NCBI GenBank assembly: GCA_902799685.1
Contig: CADCBO010000003.1
Span: forward strand, 208,454 to 272,453
Reading direction: 5' to 3'
Origin: an uncultured Bacteroidales bacterium
Lineage (GTDB): Bacteria > Bacteroidota > Bacteroidia > Bacteroidales > Bacteroidaceae
Length of the DNA: 64,000 nucleotides
Shown here: positions 27,507-56,446 of the stretch, one piece after another
Numbering within the stretch: the stretch's first letter is position 1
How the letters are laid out: each line of letters opens with the position of its first letter
Program-made: the position numbers and the translations under genes
The notes under the pieces: model-generated
Databases searched by the model: none
Told to the model about the DNA's origin: nothing
Seen by the model: the letters and a program-made list of their open reading frames with translations, nothing else

Positions 27507-27591
27507 GGAAGGATGGCAGAGTGGTCGAATGCGGCGGTCTTGAAAACCGTTGACCTTCACGGGTCCGGGGGTTCGAATCCCTCTTCTTCCG
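27507..27591 (+). tRNA. tRNA-Ser (UGA)
   Basis: GGAAGGA pairs with TTCTTCC in a 7-bp acceptor stem (one G-T). The anticodon arm has loop CTTGAAA, anticodon TGA. A long variable arm as expected for serine tRNAs precedes the T-arm GGGTTCGAATCCC. The discriminator is G at 27591 and CCA is not encoded in full. Confidence 0.95.
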
Positions 27592-39899: not shown

Positions 39900-40037
39900 A
39901 TTGAGAATTGAGAGTTGAGAATTGAGAATTATAAAAAAGCGGGCGAAAAATTTCGCTCGCTTTTTTAATGTCGCGGGAATTAACGCAGGTGCTTGTTAAT
40001 TCTCAATTCTCAACTCTCAACTCTCAATTCTCAATTA
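39899..40037 (+). repeat. ATTGAGA-heptad element with terminator, copy 4
   Basis: Left arm 39899-39931; terminator AAAAAAGCGGGCG-AAAAATTT-CGCTCGCTTTTTT (39932-39966); AATGTCGCGGG; AATTAACGCAGGTGC; right arm 39995-40037. It lies between convergent genes. The minus-strand AsmA stop (TTA at 40035-40037) falls in its right end. Confidence 0.88.
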
Positions 40038-43000
40038 TCTGACATTGCCGCGGAGTGTGTTCAGAATATCCTCTTTCATTTGAAGAACCTTCTCCTCGGT
40101 ATTGCCGCGTTTGGACGGCTTGTAGAGCTTGTCATACTTGGGACGGCCCACCTTGATATGTTTGAGCGGAGACTCGGTTATACCGTTTATCGGGCCGCTG
40201 ACGGTAACGCCCAAGCGTATGGGAAGCGGGCATTCTATCAGTGAAACATTGTAGCTGCAGCTAAGATCCTTGTTGATGTTGTGCCGGCCGCTTACTATTG
40301 CTTCGTAGCGGTCCATCTTGATGCGGGTAGGATAGAGGTCCACCTTGTCACGCAGTACCTGAAGCTCAACATCAAGGCTGTCAACGACATTACGGGCATC
40401 CTTGCTCATAAGGAGCTTTTTCTTGATGCTGTTGAAGATTTCATTATCCAATACCACCAGGTCTTTGCCTTCTATGGCAGCAGCGCCTATAAGCGTTGAC
40501 ATGACAGGGAAATAGTCTCCATGCTCTTTGGTGTCGGGTTCCAGGAATGTCTCGGCTGCCAGATGGAACTGTGCCTTGCCGGAGAATGCCTTAAGCATGG
40601 GAACTATAGAGTCAACAGCAGGGATGAGATCTATAAGTTCATCAATTTCAATATCAAGCAGGTGGAAATCAAGTTCCATGAAACGGTCCTCTATCGACGG
40701 GGTCTTGTAGATGGCGGTAAGCTGCATCTCGGCAGCCTTCGATGAGAATCCAAGCTCCTGCAGCACGGCAACGCCGTCCCTGATGGTAATGTCTCCACCT
40801 ACGTTGTTGAATATGTTGTCATTGAAATTGATTTCCGACAGGTTTGTGTAGAGGGTAAGGTCAATACCTTTGGGAACCATGAACGGACCACCGCTTATGG
40901 TGTCCTTGCCAGCCTCTATGTCATCGGCAGTCTTCTGCGCGGCCTCCACGCTTTCTGCATCGGCTCCGGCCAGACTCATGAGCCTGTTGACGTCAACGTA
41001 ATCAGATTCCAGGAAAAGCTCTCCTGTGAGCAGTCCCGTACCGTCTAAGTAGGCACCTATGTTATATACGTCGCCCCACAGCATGATGTCCGAATTGTCC
41101 AGCTCCACACGACAGTCATTGATGTTGAAACGGCCAAGAGAGAAGTCCATATCCAATTGTGGAACTAAGATAGGCTCCTCAAGCATCTCAATATTGGCAT
41201 CGGCCATGGTCATCTTGATCTGGGGATTCCATTTGAGCAGCATGTCATCCTTGGACTCGTCATACTGTGCCATGGCGTGTATGGTTGAATTGCCCAAGGT
41301 GGCGTTTATGGTATTTCCTATGGCGGCCGACAAATCATTGAATGCCACATTAGCCATCATGGCGGTTGTTTTCTCTGCTGGAGCAAGAGTTATGCTGATG
41401 TCAGCATTGTCCATGGCACCGGAAATGGTGTCCATGTCGGCCCTGAGTTTTTCGGCACGAAGGTCCAGTAGGATGTTCATCTTGTTGGTTTCTTCGTTGA
41501 AACCTGCCACCGACGCATTCAGGTCAAGATTGTCGAACGATGCGTTAATGGTGGTGGAATCAATGACTGATACTGCAAGGTCTGCGGCTGAAAGCACGAT
41601 ATCGGCTGTCTGGCGGTTCTTGTCAACGGCCACACGGCTGGGATAGGTGATGTCTGCCGCAAGCTTTCCTGACTGGGCTTTGAGCGAATCATTGATCATA
41701 GCGTCAAGATTGCGTAGAGACAATTTGGCTTTTGCGTCATCCAATACAGACCCCTTGTCGCCAAGAGTGCCTTTCACATTCAGGTCCAGACCAAGTATTC
41801 CGTGAACATCAATGCCATCCAATGCATTCTGGAATGCATCAGGAATCATGGAAATGAGCTTGTCTATATCAAGGTCACGTACAGTCTTTATCCTGGCACG
41901 TCCGGCAACGGCCTGCTGACCGCCCAGCGTACCGTTTGCGCTGAATCCTATCTGCTGGCCGTCAACAGTGGCATTGGCACCTTCCTTTATCTCAAAACGG
42001 GTTATATCCCTGTTGGTGGCCAAAGGAATATTCAGACTCATGGGCCATCCAGGAATGTAGATGTCATTGCCCAGAGCCAGATTCATTGACGGGGTGTTCA
42101 ACTCTGAATTCAGCGCAATGTCATCGCCCTGAATCTTACCGTCGGCATTGAATGATATCTGCGGGCTGTTGACCTTCATGGGATTCTCTCCGCCAGTGTT
42201 CAGCGTGGCACCTTCAATGTCTGCCTTGAGGGTGCTGTTTACGTTTGACATGTCAAGCTTAATTCCGCCGTCTATGTCAAGCAGCAGTTTGTCTATGCCG
42301 GCTTTGGTTACGGAACCTGTTGAATCGGACAGGTTCAATGATATGGTTTGTGAATTGAAAGTGAAACCTTTCACATTGATGCTGTCGCCCAGATATTTGG
42401 CCTTGTCAGCTTTCATGGAGACCGATCCTGTGGATGTGGACATTCCGTCGTTGGAGAAATTCAGGTCCGACGCCTCCATCTTCAGGGCCGATTCCAGGTC
42501 TTTCAAGCCATCCTGCCCCAAGGAACATGTCATATGGTCCAGAATGAGCTTCAGGTTATCCAGGTCGGCATTCATCGTGCCGGCTGCTGCCGATGTCTCC
42601 TTAAGGTTCAAGGTAAGGTTTCCGCTGACGTCATCGTTATATTTGGTCAGGTCTCCGTTAATCCTCAGACCGTCCATGCCGGCACTCACATCGGTTGAAT
42701 CATTCTTGATAGAGGCTTTTACAGACGCTACGGCAATGTCTGCCTTGGCTTCAAGACTGTCGTAGTTGAGTAGTCCTTTCAAATCTATCTCCAGATTGCT
42801 TATCGCAGCATCGGTGCCTGATTTCATGTCGCGGTATGACAAATCCACATCCTTGATAGAAATCTTCTGCAGGTCTGCGTAGATGTCCATTCCGCTATCA
42901 TCCTTCTCCGGTTTCTTTTCATCATTTGAACTGAACACATCCAGATTGGAACGTCCGTCCGATGCAGTAAAGGCATTGGCCTCTACTCCGTTGACATCCA

Positions 43001-43355
43001 GATTGGTAAGGATAATCTTTTTCTCCTTGTATAGGGTCTTGAAATCGACCGTAACGGTAAGGGCGTCTATTGCGGCCAGCGTATCGGAAGGTGAGTCCTC
43101 CATGTCATCATATATGACCAACCCGTTAAGGCGGAATCCCAGAAACGGATATGAACCTATCAGCGCAAGGTCCACTTTGTCAACCTTGGCACGGGCGGGA
43201 GAGTATTTTTCTATGGCCTTCTCTGCTACCTTAGTGAGCCTGGATGGGGTGAAGACAGTCCAGCAAATCAATGCTAAAGCTATGATCACCAGTCCTATTA
43301 TGGAACCAAGTGTAATTCCTGTTATCTTAAGTGTCTTTCTAAGTCCTGTATTCAT
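40035..43355 (-). CDS. AsmA-family protein
   Basis: 1106 residues. One N-terminal membrane helix (about 8-32), then a very long beta-rich region with recurrent Asp-Leu-Asn strand patterns and an AsmA-like C-terminal region. The N-terminus (TPSRLTKVAEKAIEKYSPA, KVDLALIGSYPFLGFRLNGL) is typical of AsmA/TamB-like proteins, now viewed as lipid-transport bridges between inner and outer membrane. It overlaps the upstream small lipoprotein by 4 bp. Its exact cargo cannot be told. Confidence 0.88.
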   Translation of the reverse strand: MNTGLRKTLKITGITLGSIIGLVIIALALICWTVFTPSRLTKVAEKAIEKYSPARAKVDKVDLALIGSYPFLGFRLNGLVIYDDMEDSPSDTLAAIDALTVTVDFKTLYKEKKIILTNLDVNGVEANAFTASDGRSNLDVFSSNDEKKPEKDDSGMDIYADLQKISIKDVDLSYRDMKSGTDAAISNLEIDLKGLLNYDSLEAKADIAVASVKASIKNDSTDVSAGMDGLRINGDLTKYNDDVSGNLTLNLKETSAAAGTMNADLDNLKLILDHMTCSLGQDGLKDLESALKMEASDLNFSNDGMSTSTGSVSMKADKAKYLGDSINVKGFTFNSQTISLNLSDSTGSVTKAGIDKLLLDIDGGIKLDMSNVNSTLKADIEGATLNTGGENPMKVNSPQISFNADGKIQGDDIALNSELNTPSMNLALGNDIYIPGWPMSLNIPLATNRDITRFEIKEGANATVDGQQIGFSANGTLGGQQAVAGRARIKTVRDLDIDKLISMIPDAFQNALDGIDVHGILGLDLNVKGTLGDKGSVLDDAKAKLSLRNLDAMINDSLKAQSGKLAADITYPSRVAVDKNRQTADIVLSAADLAVSVIDSTTINASFDNLDLNASVAGFNEETNKMNILLDLRAEKLRADMDTISGAMDNADISITLAPAEKTTAMMANVAFNDLSAAIGNTINATLGNSTIHAMAQYDESKDDMLLKWNPQIKMTMADANIEMLEEPILVPQLDMDFSLGRFNINDCRVELDNSDIMLWGDVYNIGAYLDGTGLLTGELFLESDYVDVNRLMSLAGADAESVEAAQKTADDIEAGKDTISGGPFMVPKGIDLTLYTNLSEINFNDNIFNNVGGDITIRDGVAVLQELGFSSKAAEMQLTAIYKTPSIEDRFMELDFHLLDIEIDELIDLIPAVDSIVPMLKAFSGKAQFHLAAETFLEPDTKEHGDYFPVMSTLIGAAAIEGKDLVVLDNEIFNSIKKKLLMSKDARNVVDSLDVELQVLRDKVDLYPTRIKMDRYEAIVSGRHNINKDLSCSYNVSLIECPLPIRLGVTVSGPINGITESPLKHIKVGRPKYDKLYKPSKRGNTEEKVLQMKEDILNTLRGNVR

Positions 43356-43851: not shown

Positions 43852-45606
43852 ATGTTCAGAACAAAAACTTGTGGAGAGCTACGCCTGGCCGATGCCGGTA
43901 CAAACGTGACATTGGCAGGATGGGTACAGAGAGTAAGGAAAATGGGTGGTATGGTCTTTGTTGACCTGCGTGACCGCTACGGCATAACCCAGCTTGTGTT
44001 TGATGACGCTACCGATGCCGCCCTGTGCGAGCAGGCCAGCCGTCTGGGACGCGAATTCGTGATCCAGGTTACCGGTAAGGTTAGCGAGCGCTCAAGCAAG
44101 AACTCCAAGATCCCCACAGGTGACATAGAAATCCTGGTCAACACTCTGAATGTCATCAATGCGGCTGATACGCCTCCCTTTACCATTGAGGACGATACCG
44201 ACGGCGGTGATGACCTGCGTATGAAATACCGCTATCTTGACCTGCGTCGCCAGTGTGTACGCAAGAACCTGGAACTGCGCCACAAGATGGTCATGGAGAT
44301 ACGTAAGTTCCTGGATGACCTGAACTTCATGGAGGTTGAGACCCCGATTCTGATCAACTCGACTCCCGAGGGCGCACGTGACTTCGTGGTTCCTTCACGC
44401 ATGAATCCCGGTCAGTTCTACGCTTTGCCTCAGAGCCCCCAGATTCTCAAGCAGTTGCTTATGGTTTCAGGTTTTGACCGTTACTTCCAGATAGCCAAGT
44501 GTTTTCGTGACGAGGACCTGCGTGCCGACCGTCAGCCTGAGTTCACCCAGATTGACTGCGAGATGTCATTTGTGGAGCAGGAGGATATCCTGCAGATATT
44601 TGAGGCTATGGCCAAGCACCTGTTCAAGAGCATCCTTGGTATTGAGATGAAGGATCCTTTCCAGCGTATGACCTGGCAGGATGCAATGAAATACTACGGC
44701 AGTGACAAACCGGACCTTCGCTTTGACATGCACTTTGTGGAGCTCATGGATGTTCTCAAGGGCTACGGATTCGGTGTGTTTGACAGCGCCGCTTACATCG
44801 GCGGTATCTGCGCAAAGGGTGCTGCTACTTACACCCGCAAGCAGATTGACGCTCTGACAGAGTACGTTAAGCGTCCTCAGATTGGTGCCAAGGGTATGGT
44901 TTACGCCCGTGTTGAGGCTGACGGCAGCGTCAAGTCATCGGTAGATAAGTTCTATAGCCAGGAGGTTCTGCAGCAGCTTAAGGCTGCCATGAATGCCGAG
45001 GCAGGTGACCTTATCCTCATCCTGAGCGGTGATGACGCCATGAAGACCCGTAAGCAGCTCTCGGAACTGCGTCTTAAGGTGGCCGATGAGCTTGGCCTCA
45101 GAGACAAGAACCAGTTCAAGTGCCTATGGGTGATTGACTTCCCCATGTACGAGTGGAGTGATGAGGAGAACCGTCTGATGGCTATGCACCATCCGTTCAC
45201 ATCACCCAAGCCTGAGGATATTCCTCTGCTTGACACTGATCCCGCCAGCGTCCGTGCCAATGCCTACGATATGGTCATAAACGGTATTGAGGTTGGTGGC
45301 GGCTCTATCCGTATCCACGACAGCAAGCTGCAGGCTACCATATTCAGGATCCTGGGCTTTACTCCTGAGCAGGCTCAGGCCAAGTTCGGATTCCTGATGA
45401 ACGCATTCAAGTTCGGCGCACCTCCTCACGGTGGTCTGGCATTCGGTCTGGACCGCTTTGTGAGCATCTTTGCAAAACTGGACAGCATCCGCGACTGCAT
45501 CGCATTCCCAAAGAACAACTCCGGCCGCGATGTCATGCTCGATGCTCCCGGTCCGCTTGACCAATCCCAACTGGACGAACTTCAGCTCAAAGTTGATGTA
45601 AAATGA
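43852..45606 (+). CDS. aspS: Aspartate--tRNA ligase
   Basis: 584 residues. N-terminal OB-fold anticodon-binding domain (1-110), class II core with motif 2 [16 protein letters not shown], the bacterial GAD insertion domain (about 285-410), and motif 3 [10 protein letters not shown] near the C-terminus. Length and domains are those of bacterial-type AspRS. The final codons and stop (AAA TGA, 45601-45606) lie inside a GGGG-CCCC palindromic element. Confidence 0.97.
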
Positions 45607-45634
45607 TACAAAAGGGGACAGACCCCAATTGTAC
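45601..45634 (+). repeat. GGGG-CCCC palindromic element, copy 4
   Basis: AAATGATACAAAAGGGGACA then GACCCCAATTGTAC, followed by TTTTTTT, so this copy could act as an aspS terminator. Its TGA is the aspS stop codon. Confidence 0.8.
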
Positions 45635-45900
45635 TTTTTTTAGGCCGCTTCTCTATTTTGGGGAGCATTAGCGTAGGGCGTGAAGCGGAGAACCTTGGAG
45701 AATCCCGTTAAGAACGGCGCATGTCTGAGGCATGTTAGGCCCCTGTAGGGGACTAAAAATGCTGAGTTCGACGTTTAGGGTCCGGAGAGGTTCGGAGTAG
45801 CCTGGAGCTGTTGTCTCCCTGCCATAATATTCTGTCTCCGGAAACTGGCTTTGACATTTTATGGAACTTTATCATTTTTAGCAGAAATTTCTTGGTGGAA
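45635..45900. other. Intergenic region with structured and repeated sequence
   Basis: There is no convincing gene between aspS and the FMN riboswitch. The region is rich in small inverted repeats (CCGCTTC ... GAAGCGG around 45646-45692, CCCCTGTAGGGG at 45740-45751). It contains a 45-base segment (45764-45808) that recurs inverted after pyrD. On the minus strand a short open frame of about 45 codons runs through it, ending near 45670; I do not call it a gene. Confidence 0.6.
45764..45808 (-). repeat. 45-base dispersed repeat, copy 1
   Basis: On the minus strand this matches 63878-63922 at 39 of 45 positions by eye; the last 21 bases are identical, including GGACCCTAAACGTCGAACTC. Both copies read GYSxPLRTLNVEL in one frame, so they may derive from a common coding or mobile sequence. 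Confidence 0.75.
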
Positions 45901-45927
45901 TGGGGCAGAAAGCGGAAATTTGCAGGA

Positions 45928-46038
45928 GTTATTTTTCAGGGTGGGGTGAGATTCCCCGACCGGCGGTACAGTCCGCGAGCCGAAAGGCCGAACCGTTGCA
46001 ACTACGGTACCGACAGTATAGTCTGGATGAAAGAAGAA
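45928..46038 (+). promoter_or_regulatory. FMN riboswitch (RFN element)
   Basis: All conserved blocks are present in order: the 5' P1 strand TTTTTC, GGGGTGAGATTCCCC (P2), GACCGGCGGTACAGTCCGC (P3), a variable hairpin GAGCCGAAAGGC, ACCGTTGCAACTACGGT (P4), CCGACAGTATAGTCTGGATG (P5/P6), and the 3' P1 strand GAAAGAAGAA. The purine-rich 3' P1 strand is also the likely ribosome-binding region for the ATG at 46042, so FMN binding would hide it. A promoter-like GAAATTTG lies at about 45914-45921. It controls the TonB-dependent receptor that follows. Confidence 0.95.
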
Positions 46039-46041
46039 TTT

Positions 46042-49000
46042 ATGAAAATCAAGACAGTCCTGTCAGGCGTTATCGCGCCTGCAAAACTCATTTATGCCGA
46101 GGGCATGAATGAGACATCATCCGAGTTAACCAATCCGGCTGTAGCCGGCAGTTTGTCATCCGGTATCATAAGGTTCACATATGTGCTGCTTATGTGTCTT
46201 TTTGTGTCGGCAGGAGTATGGGCTCAGAATACCACTGCAAGCATAAGCGGTTCAGTAAAAGATGAATACGGTGAGCCTATTGAAGTTGCCAACATTCTTG
46301 TTACCAGCAATGACAACGGTGCCATATACGGTGCTGTTACCAATCGTTTCGGCATTTTTTCCATATCCGGACTCAAGCCCGGAAAATATCAGGTCAAGGT
46401 CAGTTTTGTGGGTTATACAGCACTGAGTGTTGACAACGTGGTACTTTCCGTGGGCAAGGACTACAACATCAATGTAGTGTTGAAAGAGGATACCAGGAAT
46501 CTGCCCATGGTGACAATCAGGGGAGAAGACACTCATTTCAACGAAACACGCACGGGTCAGGCATATAACATAAACAGCGAGAGTATGAACCTGCTCCCTT
46601 CAGTTAACCGCAGCATGCTTGATTACACAAGGTTGTCTCCGTACAGTGGCCAGGATAATGCCATGGCTGGCCGAGACGGTCGAGGCACGGCACTTACCAT
46701 TGACGGCGCTGTTATGAACAACAGCTTTGGTCTGTCGGCCGACCTGCCGGGTGCCGGAACACCGATTTCAATTGATGCTGTCGAGGAGATGCAGGTAGCC
46801 ATTGCCCCGTATGATGTGCGTCAGAGCAACTTTACAGGCGGTGGAATAAACGTCATAACCAAGTCCGGCACAAACAGATTCAAGGCCACAGCCTATTATT
46901 ATTTCCATGATGAAAGGCTGCGTGGCAATACCGTCTGCGGAACGGATTTGGGTGATAGGGTAAGCAACAGCAAGACAACATATGGCTTTAACATAGGTGG
47001 ACCGATCATTAAGGATAAGCTCTTTTATTTTGTTAATGCCGAGTACGTTACAACTCCAGGCCCCATCACTGAATGGAAACTTTCCAAGGATGGCGTGGCC
47101 GATGCAGCTGGTATGACAAGCCGTGTTACCGCAGCCGATATGGAACGTTTCAGCGCTGCGCTCCAGACATATGGTTATGACGCAGGCGGTTACAATCTTA
47201 CCAGAGGTGACCAGACCAACACCAAGATGCTGGCGCGCATAGACTGGAATATATCTGATAACCATAATCTTATGCTGCGTTACAACTGGACGGGCAACAC
47301 CCAGTGGAACACTCCCAATGCACGCAGTACGGTAGGGACCAAGGCAGCATCGGATCGTATTTCAAAGAATTCTTACGCATTCCGCAACAACTGCTATACG
47401 ATAAATGACAATGCATGGTCTGCTGTAGCCGAACTCAATAGCCGTCTGAGTGGCAGGATGAACAACAAACTGCTTGCCACGGTATCGGACGTAAGTAACT
47501 TGAGAGGCTCGGAATCAGCCTGGTTCCCACATATAGACATACGCAAGGATGGTGACGCTTTCATGAGTGCCGGCTATGAGCTGTTCTCAAACGGTACCGG
47601 TAACTATGTGCGTACATACAGTTTCTTTGACCATATCCGATGGACAATGGCTCACAGTACTCTCACGGCCGGATTAAGCTACCAGTATCAGAAAGGTGCC
47701 ACAAACTATCGCATGTACGGGACGGGCTATTACCGGTACGCATCATTGGATGATTTCATCAATCAGGCCGCTCCTGTTGCATTCGGAATGACTTATACAT
47801 ACGATGGCATAGATGATCCCGCATCACGCACATCGTTTGGGCAGTCAGCCGTCTTCCTGCAGGCAGAATCCCACATATCTGACAGGTTTACACTTACATA
47901 CGGAATCAGGGCCGACCTTATGCAGTATTATGAGCAGTTGGAAACCAACCAGTCTTTCAAGGATCTTGACTGGACTCTCCATTTCAAGGCCCCCGGAACA
48001 GAAACGGCCGACTACAAATCGCCTGTAATAGACAACGGACGCTGGCCCGATGCAAACGTACAGTGGTCACCGCGTGTAGGATTCAACTGGGATGTTAATG
48101 AACGGGGTAATGTGGTAATTCATGGCGGTGCCGGAATATTTACCGGACGTATTCCGCTTGTATTCTTCTGTACCATTCCCAACAGCAGCGGCATGCTGCA
48201 GAACACCGTGATGTTTAACAAGACTGCCGACAATACTGCTATTGCAAACACTTTCCTGGATGGCCTGGCTGGCAATTTCCTTTATACAGAGGAATCCATG
48301 CGCAACTACCTGGAGCAGAATGACTGTGCAATGAAAGCCAATCCGCATCCATTCCTTACCGGCGCCTCAATAACAGGCATTGACAGCAAATTCAAACTTC
48401 CGCAGGTGTTCAAGACATCAGTTGCCATAGATATAGACCCGGACCTGAGTTTCCCTGCACAAATCTCGATTGAGGGTATTTTCAACAAGGATATCAACGC
48501 TGTTTATGTAGAGAACTACAATCAGATTCATGATGACTGCTACGGACGCTTTTATGGCTTTGACAACAGGGTTGACTATCATAGTGCAGATGTTGTCAAT
48601 ACTTCAGTGTCCAAATCGGGTGGCGCAATGGTGATCAGGAATACCAATAAGGGTTACAGCTGGTCATTCGGAGCCACAATAAAGGCAGAACCGCTGAACA
48701 ATCTCCAAATGGAGCTGTCATATATTCACCAGACAGCATTGTCGGTATCGGACATGATAGGGTCTTCACTCAGTTCAACCTGGAGTAACACTCCCCATGT
48801 GAACAGCCCCAATGAGATGGTGCTACGCCCGTCGGCTTACGTCATTCCCGACAAGTTGTCGGCATCGGCCACATACAGGATTGCTTATGCGCGCAACAGG
48901 TTCATGAGTACAGACCTGGGGCTGTTCTATACAGGTCACACAGGCGGAACCTACAGCTATACATACACCAATGACATGAACGGCGACGGTGCGGCAAATG

Positions 49001-49509
49001 ACCTGTTATGGATCCCGTCATCATCAGGTGAGCTTTTGTTTGACGATATCACTGACAAGAACGGACAGGTTCTATATACCGCCGATGAACAGCGTGCCGC
49101 ATTCTGGGCATTCCTGAATCAGGACTTGTATCTCAGCACCCATATCGGTCAGTATGCAGTGGCCAATGCAGCACTTATGCCTTGGGTACATCGTTTTGAC
49201 CTGCATATAGCCCAGAACTTTAACATTGCAGCTCTCAGGGGTGCCAAACGTGGCAACGAGACGCTTCAGGTATCGCTTGACGTGATGAATGTAGGTAACC
49301 TGCTCAACAGCAACTGGGGCGTGACCCGGACTCCGTCGGCCTGCAACAACGCCAAGATCCTGAATTATGTAAGGACCGAAGAAAACGGTAAGCCCGTCTA
49401 TACTATGGCAACAAACGGCGAAGGCCTTGTTTCCAAGACCTTCGAACCGCTCAAGTCAACTGCCAACTGCTGGTATCTGCAACTTGGCGTCAAGCTGATA
49501 TTTGACTGA
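46042..49509 (+). CDS. TonB-dependent receptor under FMN riboswitch control (candidate flavin importer)
   Basis: 1155 residues from the ATG at 46042, four bases after the riboswitch; the open frame extends up to 45811 but that would translate the riboswitch. An unusual N-terminal stretch of about 40 residues precedes a signal-like segment (FTYVLLMCLFVSAGVWAQ); an ATG at 46105 would shorten it. Then a carboxypeptidase-regulatory-like domain (about 65-150), a plug domain (about 155-270, with GRDGRGTALTIDGAVM and FTGGGINVITKSGTN) and a 22-strand-type barrel to the end, Oar-like. No SusD gene follows. Riboswitch control points to riboflavin or another flavin as cargo; this is inferred, not shown. 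Confidence 0.88.
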   Translation: MKIKTVLSGVIAPAKLIYAEGMNETSSELTNPAVAGSLSSGIIRFTYVLLMCLFVSAGVWAQNTTASISGSVKDEYGEPIEVANILVTSNDNGAIYGAVTNRFGIFSISGLKPGKYQVKVSFVGYTALSVDNVVLSVGKDYNINVVLKEDTRNLPMVTIRGEDTHFNETRTGQAYNINSESMNLLPSVNRSMLDYTRLSPYSGQDNAMAGRDGRGTALTIDGAVMNNSFGLSADLPGAGTPISIDAVEEMQVAIAPYDVRQSNFTGGGINVITKSGTNRFKATAYYYFHDERLRGNTVCGTDLGDRVSNSKTTYGFNIGGPIIKDKLFYFVNAEYVTTPGPITEWKLSKDGVADAAGMTSRVTAADMERFSAALQTYGYDAGGYNLTRGDQTNTKMLARIDWNISDNHNLMLRYNWTGNTQWNTPNARSTVGTKAASDRISKNSYAFRNNCYTINDNAWSAVAELNSRLSGRMNNKLLATVSDVSNLRGSESAWFPHIDIRKDGDAFMSAGYELFSNGTGNYVRTYSFFDHIRWTMAHSTLTAGLSYQYQKGATNYRMYGTGYYRYASLDDFINQAAPVAFGMTYTYDGIDDPASRTSFGQSAVFLQAESHISDRFTLTYGIRADLMQYYEQLETNQSFKDLDWTLHFKAPGTETADYKSPVIDNGRWPDANVQWSPRVGFNWDVNERGNVVIHGGAGIFTGRIPLVFFCTIPNSSGMLQNTVMFNKTADNTAIANTFLDGLAGNFLYTEESMRNYLEQNDCAMKANPHPFLTGASITGIDSKFKLPQVFKTSVAIDIDPDLSFPAQISIEGIFNKDINAVYVENYNQIHDDCYGRFYGFDNRVDYHSADVVNTSVSKSGGAMVIRNTNKGYSWSFGATIKAEPLNNLQMELSYIHQTALSVSDMIGSSLSSTWSNTPHVNSPNEMVLRPSAYVIPDKLSASATYRIAYARNRFMSTDLGLFYTGHTGGTYSYTYTNDMNGDGAANDLLWIPSSSGELLFDDITDKNGQVLYTADEQRAAFWAFLNQDLYLSTHIGQYAVANAALMPWVHRFDLHIAQNFNIAALRGAKRGNETLQVSLDVMNVGNLLNSNWGVTRTPSACNNAKILNYVRTEENGKPVYTMATNGEGLVSKTFEPLKSTANCWYLQLGVKLIFD

Positions 49510-49512
49510 TTG

Positions 49513-50427
49513 TCAGATACAAAGCAAAGCTATTGAAACCGCTGCCAGGATAATTCCCACCACCTGGTGCGGTTTCATCTTTTCATGGAATGCCCATAAG
49601 CCCACGAATGCTCCTATTGCAACAATTCCGATGTTGTGGATGGGGAACAGGATAGAGGAATCTATAGACTTCATTGAGAGCATAAGCATGTATGTGCAGA
49701 AATAATTGATTGCACCAAGTTCTATACCTCCCATGATATTCTTCATGGTGATTGGTATCCGCTTGCCGTCAGGCCCTTTCTTGAAGAAAGAGTATAAGCA
49801 CAGCAGCATTGCCACAAAGAAAACGGATGCCGTTACAAGTGACAGTTCACTGTTTATTGCCTGCTCTGTCATTCCCGCCTTGGTATCGGCTACGGTGACG
49901 TTGTGCTGGATTACCTTGAGGAAAGAGTTGCTGAGTCCGAAAGTGATGAAAACGATTATGGGGGCCAGAATGTCACGGAAGGTGTAAACACGGCCGTCAT
50001 CAGGCTTTCCTGTCCAAACGGTCAGCGTCATGGCTACAAGTACAAGGATTATAAGCAACCACTTAGGCCTGGCGCTGCCCTCAATGAGAAGGAAAGACAC
50101 AATTATAGGTATCACCATCGATGCACGGCTGCATACTGTGGAGATTGCCACTCCGACGCGACGTGTAGAGTCGGAGAGCAGAATCATGCCTGCCATGAAT
50201 ATCAATCCCAAAATAAGCACAGGAACCAGCCAATGTGCCTTGAATGGGTTCACCACCAACTCCCCATGAAGTGAAAAAAGTATGCCTAAAATGAACGCCG
50301 TCAGATAATTGAAGAATATAGCCTGTCCGGAATCCACACCTTTTATGTGGAATATCTTGAACATGACTGAAAACATCGCCGCGCATATGGTAGCGATGAT
50401 AAGATATATGATGCCAGCTAATGCCAT
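49513..50427 (-). CDS. EamA/DMT-family transporter
   Basis: 304 residues from the ATG at 50427 (MALAGIIYLI). The frame is open to 50505, but that would overlap the upstream gene. About ten membrane helices in two EamA repeats, with the typical ATICAAMFSVMFK start and the second-repeat GGIELGAINYFCTYMLMLS. DMT proteins export or import small metabolites. It is convergent with the riboswitch-controlled receptor (3 bp between stops), so it is not in that operon. It follows the beta-barrel gene by 13 bp. Confidence 0.85.
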   Translation of the reverse strand: MALAGIIYLIIATICAAMFSVMFKIFHIKGVDSGQAIFFNYLTAFILGILFSLHGELVVNPFKAHWLVPVLILGLIFMAGMILLSDSTRRVGVAISTVCSRASMVIPIIVSFLLIEGSARPKWLLIILVLVAMTLTVWTGKPDDGRVYTFRDILAPIIVFITFGLSNSFLKVIQHNVTVADTKAGMTEQAINSELSLVTASVFFVAMLLCLYSFFKKGPDGKRIPITMKNIMGGIELGAINYFCTYMLMLSMKSIDSSILFPIHNIGIVAIGAFVGLWAFHEKMKPHQVVGIILAAVSIALLCI

Positions 50428-50440
50428 AATCCTTGTGGTT

Positions 50441-51292
50441 TTATCTTTTTTTGCCTTGTATGTAATGGGAATATCCAATCTGGATGGCCAGATAGTCAAC
50501 GTCACGGGATATGTTGAACTGTGACAGATGTGCCTTGCTGTCGGTCTTTGCCTTGCGCTGAGAGGTATAGCTGTATGTTGCTCCCAGGAGAGGAATACTC
50601 AGCGTGAGGGCACTGTTGTCACGCAACTTGACACATATACCGGCACCTAACTTAAGTCCCGTTGCCCATATATCTGATGTACGGCTTTTATTGAGTTGTT
50701 CCTGATTACCATCTCTTAACGGATAGGATTCAATACGTCCATACTCACCGTAAATACGTGCCTCTCCAAACAGTCCTATGGTCTTGCTGCCAAAGAATGA
50801 CATGTATCTGCGCAGTGCCACGGCTGTCCCCCAGGCTTTGCGTGACATGTGTCGTCCCAGGATGTGGATATTTAGAAGATTGCCTATTGAATCACGTTCT
50901 TCTTCATCATCAATCACACCCATATTAAGCACCTCACGCAGGTCGGCCCTTATGTCTGCATCAAGTTTATATCCACTGTATTCCAGTCGGAAGTCAAGCG
51001 AGACATCGTCTTTAAAGAAGAGTGAGAAACTGGGTGATATGCTGTAATTTACGAACTCACCTTCACCTATATTCAGCAGGGACAGGATGGAATAGCCGTC
51101 GCTTGCAGCATCTCCGCCTGCCTTGATGCTACGGTATCCACCGGTAAGGTTAATGGCACGGTGTCCTTTCTCTATGAAAACCGTAGAGCCTTTTTCCGGG
51201 TCTGTAAAACGGTTAAGGATGCCTCTTTCATTCTGCGCCAGAGCGGAAACTGAAACAAATAGTATTGCCGTAACAAAGGATAATCTTTTCAT
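50441..51292 (-). CDS. Predicted outer-membrane beta-barrel protein
   Basis: 283 residues, signal peptide (about 1-19, ending A-L-A-Q). The mature part is a run of alternating polar/hydrophobic strands (INLTGGYRS, PSFSLFFKDDVSLDFRLEY, IGLFGEARIYGEYGRI, LKLGAGICVKL, LAIQIGYSHYI) as in small outer-membrane barrels of Bacteroidales. No family name can be given. It lies between the M3 peptidase (upstream, 18 bp) and the DMT transporter. Confidence 0.7.
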   Translation of the reverse strand: MKRLSFVTAILFVSVSALAQNERGILNRFTDPEKGSTVFIEKGHRAINLTGGYRSIKAGGDAASDGYSILSLLNIGEGEFVNYSISPSFSLFFKDDVSLDFRLEYSGYKLDADIRADLREVLNMGVIDDEEERDSIGNLLNIHILGRHMSRKAWGTAVALRRYMSFFGSKTIGLFGEARIYGEYGRIESYPLRDGNQEQLNKSRTSDIWATGLKLGAGICVKLRDNSALTLSIPLLGATYSYTSQRKAKTDSKAHLSQFNISRDVDYLAIQIGYSHYIQGKKR

Positions 51293-54551: not shown

Positions 54552-54579
54552 CAAAAATAGAAAGAAATCACTAAATTTG
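54552..54579. promoter_or_regulatory. Divergent back-to-back -7 boxes
   Basis: TATTTTTG on the minus strand (54552-54559) for the EEP gene and TAAATTTG on the plus strand (54572-54579) for the nicotinamidase gene. Their upstream elements must overlap, so the two promoters probably compete. Confidence 0.55.
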
Positions 54580-54603
54580 CACATTCAAATAACAATTGTT
54601 GTA

Positions 54604-55242
54604 ATGAAAGCAATCAGGATTTTTGCCGCTGCTGTCGCATTCTTGGCTGTGGTGGCTTGCACAGGAAACAAAAAACAGACAGTTATGACAAACCGTGAAC
54701 CCGCAAACATTATGGTAGTGGTTGACCTTCAGAAGGATTTCATTGACGGAAACCTGCCTGCTACCGACGGCACACGCGTTGTGGAGCCTGTAAAGAGCGT
54801 CCTTACCAAGTTTGACAAGGTATATTTTACCCTTGACTGGCATCCATGGAACCACTGCTCATTCAAGGCAAACGGCGGTATCTGGCCTCAGCACTGCGTA
54901 CGCTACACTGTTGGCGCAGCTCTGCCTGACGGTATTCTGGACAATCTGGATATCAATAACGTACGTTTCCTGCCCAAGGGCCAGGCTCAGGACAAGGAGG
55001 AGTACGGTCAGTTTGAGAATACAAAGGGAAATGACCAGGATCTGTTTGTAAAGGGTGACAAGGTTGTTGTATGCGGTATCGCTGCCGAGTACTGCGTACT
55101 GGAGACCCTGAAGAATCTGGTTCGTCTTAGCAAGGAGGTAGGTTTTGAGCTCTCTGTCTATCTGGAGGGCGTAGCCAGCATCGAGACTGTCGATCCGCTG
55201 GTAACCTACATGAACGAGAACAATATAAAGATTTATAAATAA
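54604..55242 (+). CDS. pncA: Nicotinamidase-like isochorismatase-fold protein with lipoprotein signal
   Basis: 212 residues from the ATG at 54604. Residues 1-19 form a lipoprotein signal ending L-A-V-V-A-C19. The enzyme part has the full nicotinamidase set: catalytic D41, K125 and C164 (in GIAAEYCVLETL), and metal ligands D78, H80 and H84 in DWHPWNHC. PncA hydrolyses nicotinamide to nicotinate for NAD salvage, and pncB follows 7 bp later. Known nicotinamidases are cytosolic, so a lipidated form is odd. An internal ATG (Met28, 54685) could make a cytosolic form. Confidence 0.85.
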   Translation: MKAIRIFAAAVAFLAVVACTGNKKQTVMTNREPANIMVVVDLQKDFIDGNLPATDGTRVVEPVKSVLTKFDKVYFTLDWHPWNHCSFKANGGIWPQHCVRYTVGAALPDGILDNLDINNVRFLPKGQAQDKEEYGQFENTKGNDQDLFVKGDKVVVCGIAAEYCVLETLKNLVRLSKEVGFELSVYLEGVASIETVDPLVTYMNENNIKIYK

Positions 55243-55249
55243 GGATTTT

Positions 55250-56446
55250 ATGGAGAGCACTATAGTAAAGAGTGTGCTGGAGAATGACCTGTACAAATTC
55301 TCCATGTCATACTACTACCAACGGACTACTCCCGATGGTATAGGCACATTCAGTTTCAATGACCGCAACGGTATGAAGTTCACGCCCAAGTTTGTGAATC
55401 TGTTACGTAAGGAGTTCAAGAAACTGGAGTCACTTGCCTTGACCGATGAGGAGTTCAAATGGTGCCTCTCCAATATCTATTTCATCCCTCAGTGCTATTT
55501 TGAGTGGCTAAAGGGTTTCAGGTTCAACGCCGATATAATTGACATATCGCTTGATGAAGATGGACACCTGCACATTGAGGCAAAAGACCTTATCTACAAG
55601 GTCACGCTGTATGAAATCCCAATTCTGAGTACGGTATCGGAGGTATATTACAAGATATATGAGAAAACCGAGCCGGACTGGGCATACATAGACAGCCATC
55701 TGGAAAAGAAGGTTGCAATATCAAACGAGAACAAGCTCAAGTTTGCCAACTTTGGTATGCGCCGCCGCTACTCACGTGAGGTTGAGGATCATGTAACAGA
55801 GTATCTGACACGCCACGCCAAGTATTTCATCGGCTCATCGACCGTGTATTTCGCAATGAAATACCAGTCAATCCGTCCGGACCTTAAGCCGATAGGCACC
55901 ATGGCACATGAGCTTATGATGGCTACGGCCGCATTCATGGGTCCCAAGGAGGCAAACTATTACGTTATGCGCAACTGGGCTCAGATATTCGGCGGCAACA
56001 TGGGTACCATGCTGCCTGACTGCTTTACCACACGCGTGTTCCTGCGTAATTTCTCGCTCGATATGGCCAAGCTGTATGACGGCGTACGTCATGACAGCGG
56101 TGATCCGTTTGAGTTCGGTGACAAGATCATAGCCAAATACGAGTCATACCACATAGACCCCATGACCAAGTCAATCGTATTCAGTGACGCCCTTGACTTT
56201 GACCGTGCCCTGGCCATCCAGAAGTACTTTGAAGGTAGAATAAAGGTATCATTCGGCATCGGCACAAACCTGACCAACGATGTAGGCACAGTTGATCCGC
56301 TCAACATCGTAATGAAACTCAAGACCTTCCAGGTCAACCCCCGTCAGCACGTCTACCGTTGCGTAAAAATATCCGACACCCCGGGCAAGGAGCTGGGCGA
56401 TCCCGATGAGGTTCACAGTTACAAAGTGATATTGGGCTTGATTTAA
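55250..56446 (+). CDS. pncB: Nicotinate phosphoribosyltransferase
   Basis: 398 residues. The N-terminus VLENDLYKFSMSYYYQ, the autophosphorylation-site region GTMAHELMMA, and GVRHDSGDPFEFG and FGIGTNLTNDVG are typical of PncB. It converts nicotinate and PRPP to nicotinate mononucleotide. Coupled by position to the nicotinamidase gene, giving a two-gene NAD salvage operon, followed by a heptad element with terminator. Confidence 0.96.
   Translation: MESTIVKSVLENDLYKFSMSYYYQRTTPDGIGTFSFNDRNGMKFTPKFVNLLRKEFKKLESLALTDEEFKWCLSNIYFIPQCYFEWLKGFRFNADIIDISLDEDGHLHIEAKDLIYKVTLYEIPILSTVSEVYYKIYEKTEPDWAYIDSHLEKKVAISNENKLKFANFGMRRRYSREVEDHVTEYLTRHAKYFIGSSTVYFAMKYQSIRPDLKPIGTMAHELMMATAAFMGPKEANYYVMRNWAQIFGGNMGTMLPDCFTTRVFLRNFSLDMAKLYDGVRHDSGDPFEFGDKIIAKYESYHIDPMTKSIVFSDALDFDRALAIQKYFEGRIKVSFGIGTNLTNDVGTVDPLNIVMKLKTFQVNPRQHVYRCVKISDTPGKELGDPDEVHSYKVILGLI

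Follow-up and report, generated by a model that had tools for sequence, protein, structure and literature searches.

Riboflavin transporters known to be controlled by flavin mononucleotide (FMN) riboswitches comprise RibU, ImpX, RibXY, PnuX, RfnT and RibZ in the accessible part of one survey (PMC6593275). The FMN regulons of Sun et al. (2013) cover riboflavin synthesis and riboflavin transporters, with none in Bacteroidaceae in the available portion of the text, where the terms "TonB" and "outer membrane" are also absent (PMC3766115). For 1,291 Bacteroidales genomes, the available excerpt of a preprint describes riboflavin synthesis as highly conserved and RfnT, RibZ and ImpX as sporadic, without mention of TonB or the outer membrane (PMC12934955). 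As far as their accessible text extends, surveys of riboflavin transporters name other carriers and no TonB receptor for riboflavin (PMC4418817, PMC6593275, PMC12934955), and in the literature searched, part of it available as excerpts, no paper joining an FMN riboswitch to an outer-membrane receptor was found. An outer-membrane vitamin receptor repressed at translation initiation by its intracellular cofactor is known in Escherichia coli, where the B12 receptor BtuB is governed by an adenosylcobalamin riboswitch; the available portion of one study mentions, between +18 and +48 of the btuB coding region, a putative attenuator that earlier work is cited as finding necessary for transcriptional repression, and assigns the larger part to Rho-dependent termination at +81 to +210 (PMC11162775). 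Here we describe a locus in a 64,000-nucleotide stretch of DNA (the window) from an uncultured Bacteroidales bacterium (contig CADCBO010000003.1), where an FMN riboswitch directly precedes the gene of a large TonB-dependent receptor. The locus probably makes an FMN-repressed TonB-dependent outer-membrane importer of riboflavin or a close flavin, in a genus apparently without riboflavin synthesis, with two hairpins in the reading frame (HP1 and HP2) forming part of the same RNA and with a receptor that is itself exchangeable.

Scanning the whole window with cmscan placed an FMN riboswitch aptamer (RFN element, RF00050) at 45928-46042 on the forward strand, scoring 102.8 bits (E 9.6e-23; gathering score 66.2). 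The match spans the full model (positions 1-138), and thus the whole aptamer; the sole other Rfam match in the window was a tRNA at 27507-27591, and the assembly (2.81 Mb, 37 contigs, 85.8% complete) holds this single FMN match. The aptamer is that of the described FMN regulons, with which the locus would share the control of flavin supply, whereas its target is an outer-membrane receptor. The open frame at 46042-49509 (forward strand) encodes a TonB-dependent receptor of 1155 amino acids, supported by Pfam, a structural model and solved-structure matches; we call it Oar-like, a label taken over from the initial annotation that no tool returned. That annotation had described a complete RFN element ending four bases before the ATG of a receptor of over 1100 residues. 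The covariance model check it had proposed, the receptor length and the completeness of the element all held, and the spacing was corrected: the Rfam match reaches the A of the ATG, and the outermost standard pair of stem P1 (45931-45937 with 46033-46039, forward strand, mapped from the Rfam alignment) is A45931-U46039, leaving two bases between P1 and ATG. Neither a SusD-like nor a riboflavin-synthesis gene follows the receptor in the window's gene list and Pfam matches, as had also been claimed, since the next gene encodes a convergent EamA-family transporter (49513-50505, reverse strand). No intrinsic terminator was found in or near the leader within 45560-46200. That the riboswitch is a decayed relic is very improbable; the non-standard pair at the outer end of P1 and the weak, A/U-rich stem would suit decay, but 26 genomes of the genus carry full-length matches of 93-113 bits, well above threshold.

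The window belongs to an uncultured genus of Bacteroidaceae with 37 genomes, most of them less than 90% complete. RibH (PF00885) and RibB (PF00926) had no match in any of the 37, against 68 and 69, respectively, of the 120 relatives compared, while RibF (FAD synthetase domain) was found in 36 of the 37. The genus therefore shows the gene pattern of riboflavin auxotrophs (no RibB, no RibH, RibF present), the growth requirement being a prediction, and riboflavin synthesis has apparently been lost in it. Among the 83 relatives from other genera, 11 lacked both RibH and RibB, and a riboswitch-receptor locus was present in 7 of these 11 versus none of the other 72.

The same association was seen in 344 genomes sampled evenly across the order Bacteroidales, many of them incomplete assemblies. 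An FMN riboswitch match was found in 74, of which 69 could be classified (G411, G353 and G400 were left out as same-genus repeats, G334 for a contig end and G356 for falling below the cut-off). The riboswitch preceded only a receptor in 31 (including G219, whose Oar-like gene is cut by a contig end), only riboflavin-synthesis (rib) genes in 37 and both in one (G286), so rib genes stand behind it in 38 of the 69. The initial annotation had proposed a search for riboswitch-receptor pairs across Bacteroidales; these 32 genomes span 17 families, and outside the window's genus the receptor is for the most part of the classical plug type. RibH was missing in 70 of the 344 genomes, and riboswitch-receptor loci occurred in 31 of these 70 versus 1 of the 274 RibH-bearing genomes (Fisher p 1.5e-23, uncorrected for kinship; co-occurrence tables for RibH and RibH/RibB were compiled by hand from search listings). 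All 38 genomes with riboswitch-controlled rib genes have RibH. Of all the evidence that the riboswitch-controlled receptor would supply flavin, this order-wide link to RibH is the strongest; with the absence of RibH and RibB and the retention of RibF in the genus, it favors the earlier proposal of a candidate FMN-controlled outer-membrane flavin importer.

A second line of evidence comes from what stands behind the riboswitch. FMN matches were found in 39 of the 120 relatives, exactly one each, 26 of them in the genus (the search used stricter filters, and weak matches may be lost). Directly behind it, these 26 genomes carry an Oar-like receptor in 21 cases (G005 being assigned from its leader alone, where the contig ends) and a classical plug-type receptor of 752-759 amino acids in five, and the ATG begins in the last three bases of the riboswitch match or immediately after it. 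Two sister genera contribute four genomes in which a classical receptor starts about 84-98 bases after the riboswitch (measured to starts judged homologous by eye; the frame's first ATG is at 22-97), and in other families it precedes a receptor of the classical kind or riboflavin-synthesis genes. The window receptor thus holds the slot of a classical TonB receptor found in five genus genomes and in the sister genera, a further point for the flavin importer candidate. The locus is largely syntenic in the genus, in the order aspS (43852-45606 in the window, forward strand; Pfam and synteny), riboswitch, receptor and EamA gene.

In whole-genome searches at E<=1e-60, 31 of the 37 genus members had the Oar-like gene and 5 the classical one, none had both and one (G015) had neither, suggesting that the Oar-like gene replaces the classical one and is not added to it. 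Over roughly 2.1 kb, ending three bases beyond the riboswitch, the classical-type G011 and the Oar-type G020 share 92% identity; their receptor genes are unrelated, and similarity resumes (81%) at the EamA gene. The same swap pattern was observed between G017, whose classical gene is intact, and G000, with the break 19 bases past the riboswitch. In a tree of the linked genes (28 of the 37 genomes, 10 rows less than half filled), the classical G011 and G017 nest among Oar-type genomes. These sequence breaks and nested positions suggest that one receptor took the place of the other while the riboswitch stayed. A single, simple joining of riboswitch and Oar gene could not be read from these data, Oar genes with and without the riboswitch being mixed in their tree and G011 and G017 nesting as described.

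The Oar-like gene of the window opens with a leader of 40 codons (46042-46161, forward strand) ahead of a hydrophobic signal-peptide-like stretch (46162-46224, forward strand, judged by eye). By eye, Oar genes lacking the riboswitch open directly on the signal peptide, and most of those with the riboswitch have roughly 40 additional codons. The DNA of these codons resembles the start of the classical gene: among the 9 of 21 Oar leaders tested, seven scored above all 105 control gene starts (G034 barely), the result being weak for G033 and negative for G032. Such a leader would be expected if only the classical receptor imports flavin and the Oar-like protein is a general receptor brought behind the riboswitch by loss of the classical gene, flavin entering by another route. 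This explanation, which also draws on the Oar-like relatives found in prototrophs and, in the genus, behind aspS with no riboswitch match, is unlikely: no genus genome has both receptors, and Oar-type genomes keep both the riboswitch and the covarying hairpins described below.

Data from outside the genus also argue against it. There, an Oar-like gene was present in 9 of the 11 genomes lacking RibH and RibB versus 15 of the other 72 (p 1.5e-4), and its presence tracked the missing rib genes in family f1 (5 of 5 versus 9 of 31) as well as in the other families (4 of 6 versus 6 of 41). Six genomes of four families (G092, G301, G404, G338, G174 and G227) show the consecutive order riboswitch, classical receptor, Oar-like gene; in a search with the Oar-like protein of G092, 27 of 34 riboswitch-receptor genomes had one such gene and 7 had none. 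In a quick, midpoint-rooted tree of the Oar-like family, five of the six genes at these FMN loci form one clade, and their position apart from the genus genes points to a separate recruitment to FMN-riboswitch loci. In another genome (G345, L210), an Oar-like gene cut by a contig end comes after a riboswitch-controlled rib operon. The loci of other families favor a flavin-related role for the Oar-like family, without proving it, and flavin transport by the Oar-like protein itself, and not just by the classical receptor, is a candidate function. Two further arrangements were observed: a TonB receptor follows a riboswitch-controlled rib operon in G250 (L222), and in the prototroph G074 (L245), which has no FMN riboswitch match, an Oar-like gene and a classical receptor adjoin.

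The conserved RNA does not end at the start codon. Within the first 24 codons, +22 to +71 after the A of the ATG, the reading frame contains two hairpins, HP1 (46064-46081, forward strand, 7 bp, 4-nt loop) and HP2 (46087-46113, forward strand, 12 bp, 3-nt loop). All 7 pairs of HP1 were found in 25 of the 26 genus riboswitch loci, of the classical and the Oar type both (the exception being G034), and the same scan on windows at least 200 bases downstream gave 32 of 1104. In alignments A3 (HP1) and A4 (HP2), made from 20 and 21 of the 26 loci, all 133 cells of HP1 pair versus 22-47% when slid, and 86% of the 228 cells of HP2 pair versus 31-45%; the register of HP2 was taken from the window's own fold, which favors this paired-cell count and, less so, the compensatory changes. 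The omitted loci are G002, G005, G021 and G026 (plus G020 in A3), which resemble kept rows, and the hairpin-less G034. Changes on both sides were seen in 3 of 7 HP1 pairs and 9 of 12 HP2 pairs, hence 12 of 19 together, with a covariation score of 0.468 versus 0.260 in shuffled alignments; in the classical genes the outer pairs of HP2 shift. As these compensatory changes are unexplained by the peptide, HP1 and HP2 are best taken as real RNA structure, and the fact that they covary strongly and are common to both receptor types suggests that the conserved RNA extends into the coding sequence.

A covariance model of the hairpins (R1, built on 21 loci) matched every genus riboswitch locus except that of G034 (25 of 26), plus a further contig end in G005; after these, the best match among 76 genomes was a gene start in G038 (E 7.5e-4), and the remaining ones had E >=0.06. 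A general genome element was rejected, R1 matching only the riboswitch-receptor locus in G000. R1 found no HP1/HP2 at the classical receptors of sister genera g2 and g7 (L037, L055). The hairpins could be unrelated to the riboswitch and serve mRNA stability or early-elongation pausing of an exported protein, which we consider rather unlikely: they lie in the signal-peptide-like stretch of the classical gene, and the weaker R1 match in G038 starts an exported-looking gene among conjugation genes (by eye), but they are kept in Oar-type genes, where another signal-peptide-like stretch comes after, and HP1 is present in 25 of 26 riboswitch loci whereas R1 finds none in the riboswitch-less Oar loci L129 and L132. 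In 18 of the 21 Oar-type genes (without G034, G018 and G005), synonymous differences were 0.186 per site over codons 8-24 versus 0.60-0.67 in the mature protein, and pN/pS was 0.92 versus 0.15-0.34; the leader peptide shows no purifying selection. Synonymous differences were also low on either side of the hairpins, at 0.22 (codons 2-7) and 0.29 (codons 25-42), which fits an RNA constraint and also a leader younger than the remainder of the gene.

Hairpins and spacers elsewhere differ from those of the genus. In three genomes of another family (G197, G374 and G294; loci L173, L204 and L206), the riboswitch likewise abuts the start codon of a classical receptor, and the folds show possible in-frame hairpins of different sequence, with no R1 match. 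In the sister-genus loci L037 and L051 (G037, G066), the spacer between riboswitch and ATG has a shared inverted repeat, TTGAATTGT ... ACAATTCAA (by eye), a different platform.

How the RNA might act can be proposed from its layout. P1 pairs bases -9 to -3 ahead of the ATG, and in an energy model, enforcing the aptamer and P1 lowers the mean unpaired probability from 0.79 to 0.42 over the 12 nucleotides ahead of the ATG, while the first codons remain open and HP1 and HP2 mostly folded. FMN would thus close the start region directly, which fits the suggestion of the initial annotation that FMN could shut off translation through P1. Bacteroidota often lack a Shine-Dalgarno sequence. At low cytoplasmic FMN, P1 would be open and ribosomes would initiate at the ATG two bases beyond it; with FMN bound, P1 would close over -9 to -3 and block initiation. 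HP1 and HP2, as part of the same regulatory RNA, would be melted by a translating ribosome and would form once initiation is blocked, adding a further shut-off by attenuation, mRNA decay or slower re-initiation.

Such a two-step shut-off would resemble the start of the btuB coding region, where, in the portion of the study available, the attenuator at +18 to +48 lies near the place of HP1 and HP2 (PMC11162775). Like btuB, the locus has conserved RNA structure just past the start codon of an outer-membrane receptor gene. The two differ in ligand, aptamer and receptor, and btuB sequesters its Shine-Dalgarno sequence in a separate stem-loop, whereas here P1 itself lies beside the start codon. We would go further only tentatively, with somewhat less than even confidence: aptamer, HP1 and HP2 may form one portable regulatory RNA with its effector part after the start codon, joined to two unrelated receptor families that were swapped more than once at the boundary of riboswitch and start codon, and the Oar-like family may be a second, separately recruited class of flavin importer serving many auxotrophic Bacteroidales, also without the riboswitch.

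The receptor proteins were compared with known families and structures. In the window protein, Pfam places PF13620/PF13715 (CarboxypepD_reg) at 67-158 and a large beta-barrel (PF25183, best stretch 387-1089, E 1.7e-45); the plug domain PF07715 had no match at E<=0.001, the plug region being modelled with low confidence, and did match the relative from G092 (E 6.7e-6). The carboxypeptidase-like domain near the N-terminus is shared with SusC/RagA and is the part that matches TIGR04056, but the score is far below the cut-off of that family (45.5 bits versus 368.25) and no SusD gene adjoins, the neighbours being aspS and the convergent EamA gene. AlphaFold models of the Oar-like and the classical receptor were of moderate quality (pTM 0.64 and 0.60, mean pLDDT 68.8 and 59.3). 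The Oar-like model matched 214 solved structures at E<=0.001; all of the 50 that were listed are described as TonB-dependent receptors or transporters, with YddB (6ofr) at the top. This likeness is unspecific (TM about 0.4, relative to query length), with comparable scores for many siderophore receptors. The best matches of the classical model are PqqU/YncD (9c4o, with PQQ, at the top, and 6v81), a TonB-dependent receptor that imports a redox cofactor, PQQ; the classical receptor is only 14% identical to it (TM about 0.53-0.55, on a model of moderate confidence), a likeness that hardly distinguishes it from siderophore receptors. Family models gave just weak, sub-cutoff matches of the classical receptor to haem, B12 and other receptors, which do not fix its identity.

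The size of the Oar-like protein (1155 amino acids) raises the possibility that it imports a larger flavin source, such as FMN/FAD, a flavinylated peptide or a flavoprotein, and not free riboflavin; regulation by FMN would look identical. We regard this as a serious alternative that nonetheless falls clearly short of even. The model resembles FusA, the ferredoxin receptor, at rank 3 among many TonB-dependent transporters, and the six genomes with both receptors side by side could split free and bound flavin between them, but siderophore receptors reach similar scores and, within the genus, either receptor type alone seems enough.

The preferred reading, an FMN-repressed importer of riboflavin or a close flavin, has to be weighed against several observations that speak the other way. 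Of the 70 RibH-less genomes, 39 lack a classified riboswitch-receptor locus, and one is present in G286 although that genome has RibH and keeps its rib operon under a riboswitch. Prototrophs also contain Oar-like relatives, and the structure matches of the two models neither single out a flavin receptor nor separate either protein from siderophore receptors. Seven genus genomes have an Oar-like gene and no FMN match in the stricter search, directly behind aspS in G016, G024, G030, G035 and G003 and elsewhere in G001 and G027 (in G004, G009 and G028 the gene is partial and its upstream region not assessable), and Oar genes with and without the riboswitch are intermixed in the tree. Orthology of the window gene with the Oar genes at FMN loci of other families was rejected, all six and that of G077 lying on the far side of a split supported at 100. 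In G011 the classical receptor gene is spread over two frames and may be broken or misassembled. As to the hairpins, G034 has the riboswitch and neither HP1 nor HP2, the low synonymous divergence could reflect a young leader, and a test with random synonymous codons was modest on single genes (p<0.05 in 19 of 26).

Within the literature searched, the order-wide link to auxotrophy, the receptor exchange behind one riboswitch and the covarying hairpins within coding sequence are new. A regulated receptor in genomes that would have to import flavin would make the outer-membrane step of vitamin B2 uptake directly testable. The locus predicts the riboflavin dependence of uncultured gut and other Bacteroidales, the riboswitch-receptor pair being a possible marker for many auxotrophs, and the in-frame hairpins offer a case of conserved RNA that continues from a riboswitch into the coding sequence of two unrelated receptor genes.

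Among the neighbouring genes, the EamA gene was found in 34 of the 37 genus genomes versus none of 39 others at E<=1e-40. ImpX and RibN belong to the EamA superfamily, and the transporter is a candidate inner-membrane partner of the receptor. Further downstream, 54577-56443 (forward strand) encodes an isochorismatase-type hydrolase, nicotinamidase-like by eye and with an N-terminus resembling that of a lipoprotein, adjoining a nicotinate phosphoribosyltransferase, perhaps a vitamin B3 salvage pair with an exported nicotinamidase near the B2 locus. Upstream, 40035-43355 (reverse strand) encodes a protein of 1106 amino acids that has no Pfam match at E<=0.001 and is conserved near aspS in the genus. 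Of 18 loci from named relatives, nine (60-74% identity) come from metagenome assemblies labelled Bacteroidaceae or Bacteroidales, mostly of ruminant gut origin, with water buffalo, yak and reindeer as the source of several (isolates RGIG, RUG and others); the other nine are 38-42% alike and include Prevotella and Flavobacteriia. Two FMN riboswitches occur in G286 (L179, L217): the rib operon has one, and the other precedes a classical receptor with an apparently interrupted first frame.

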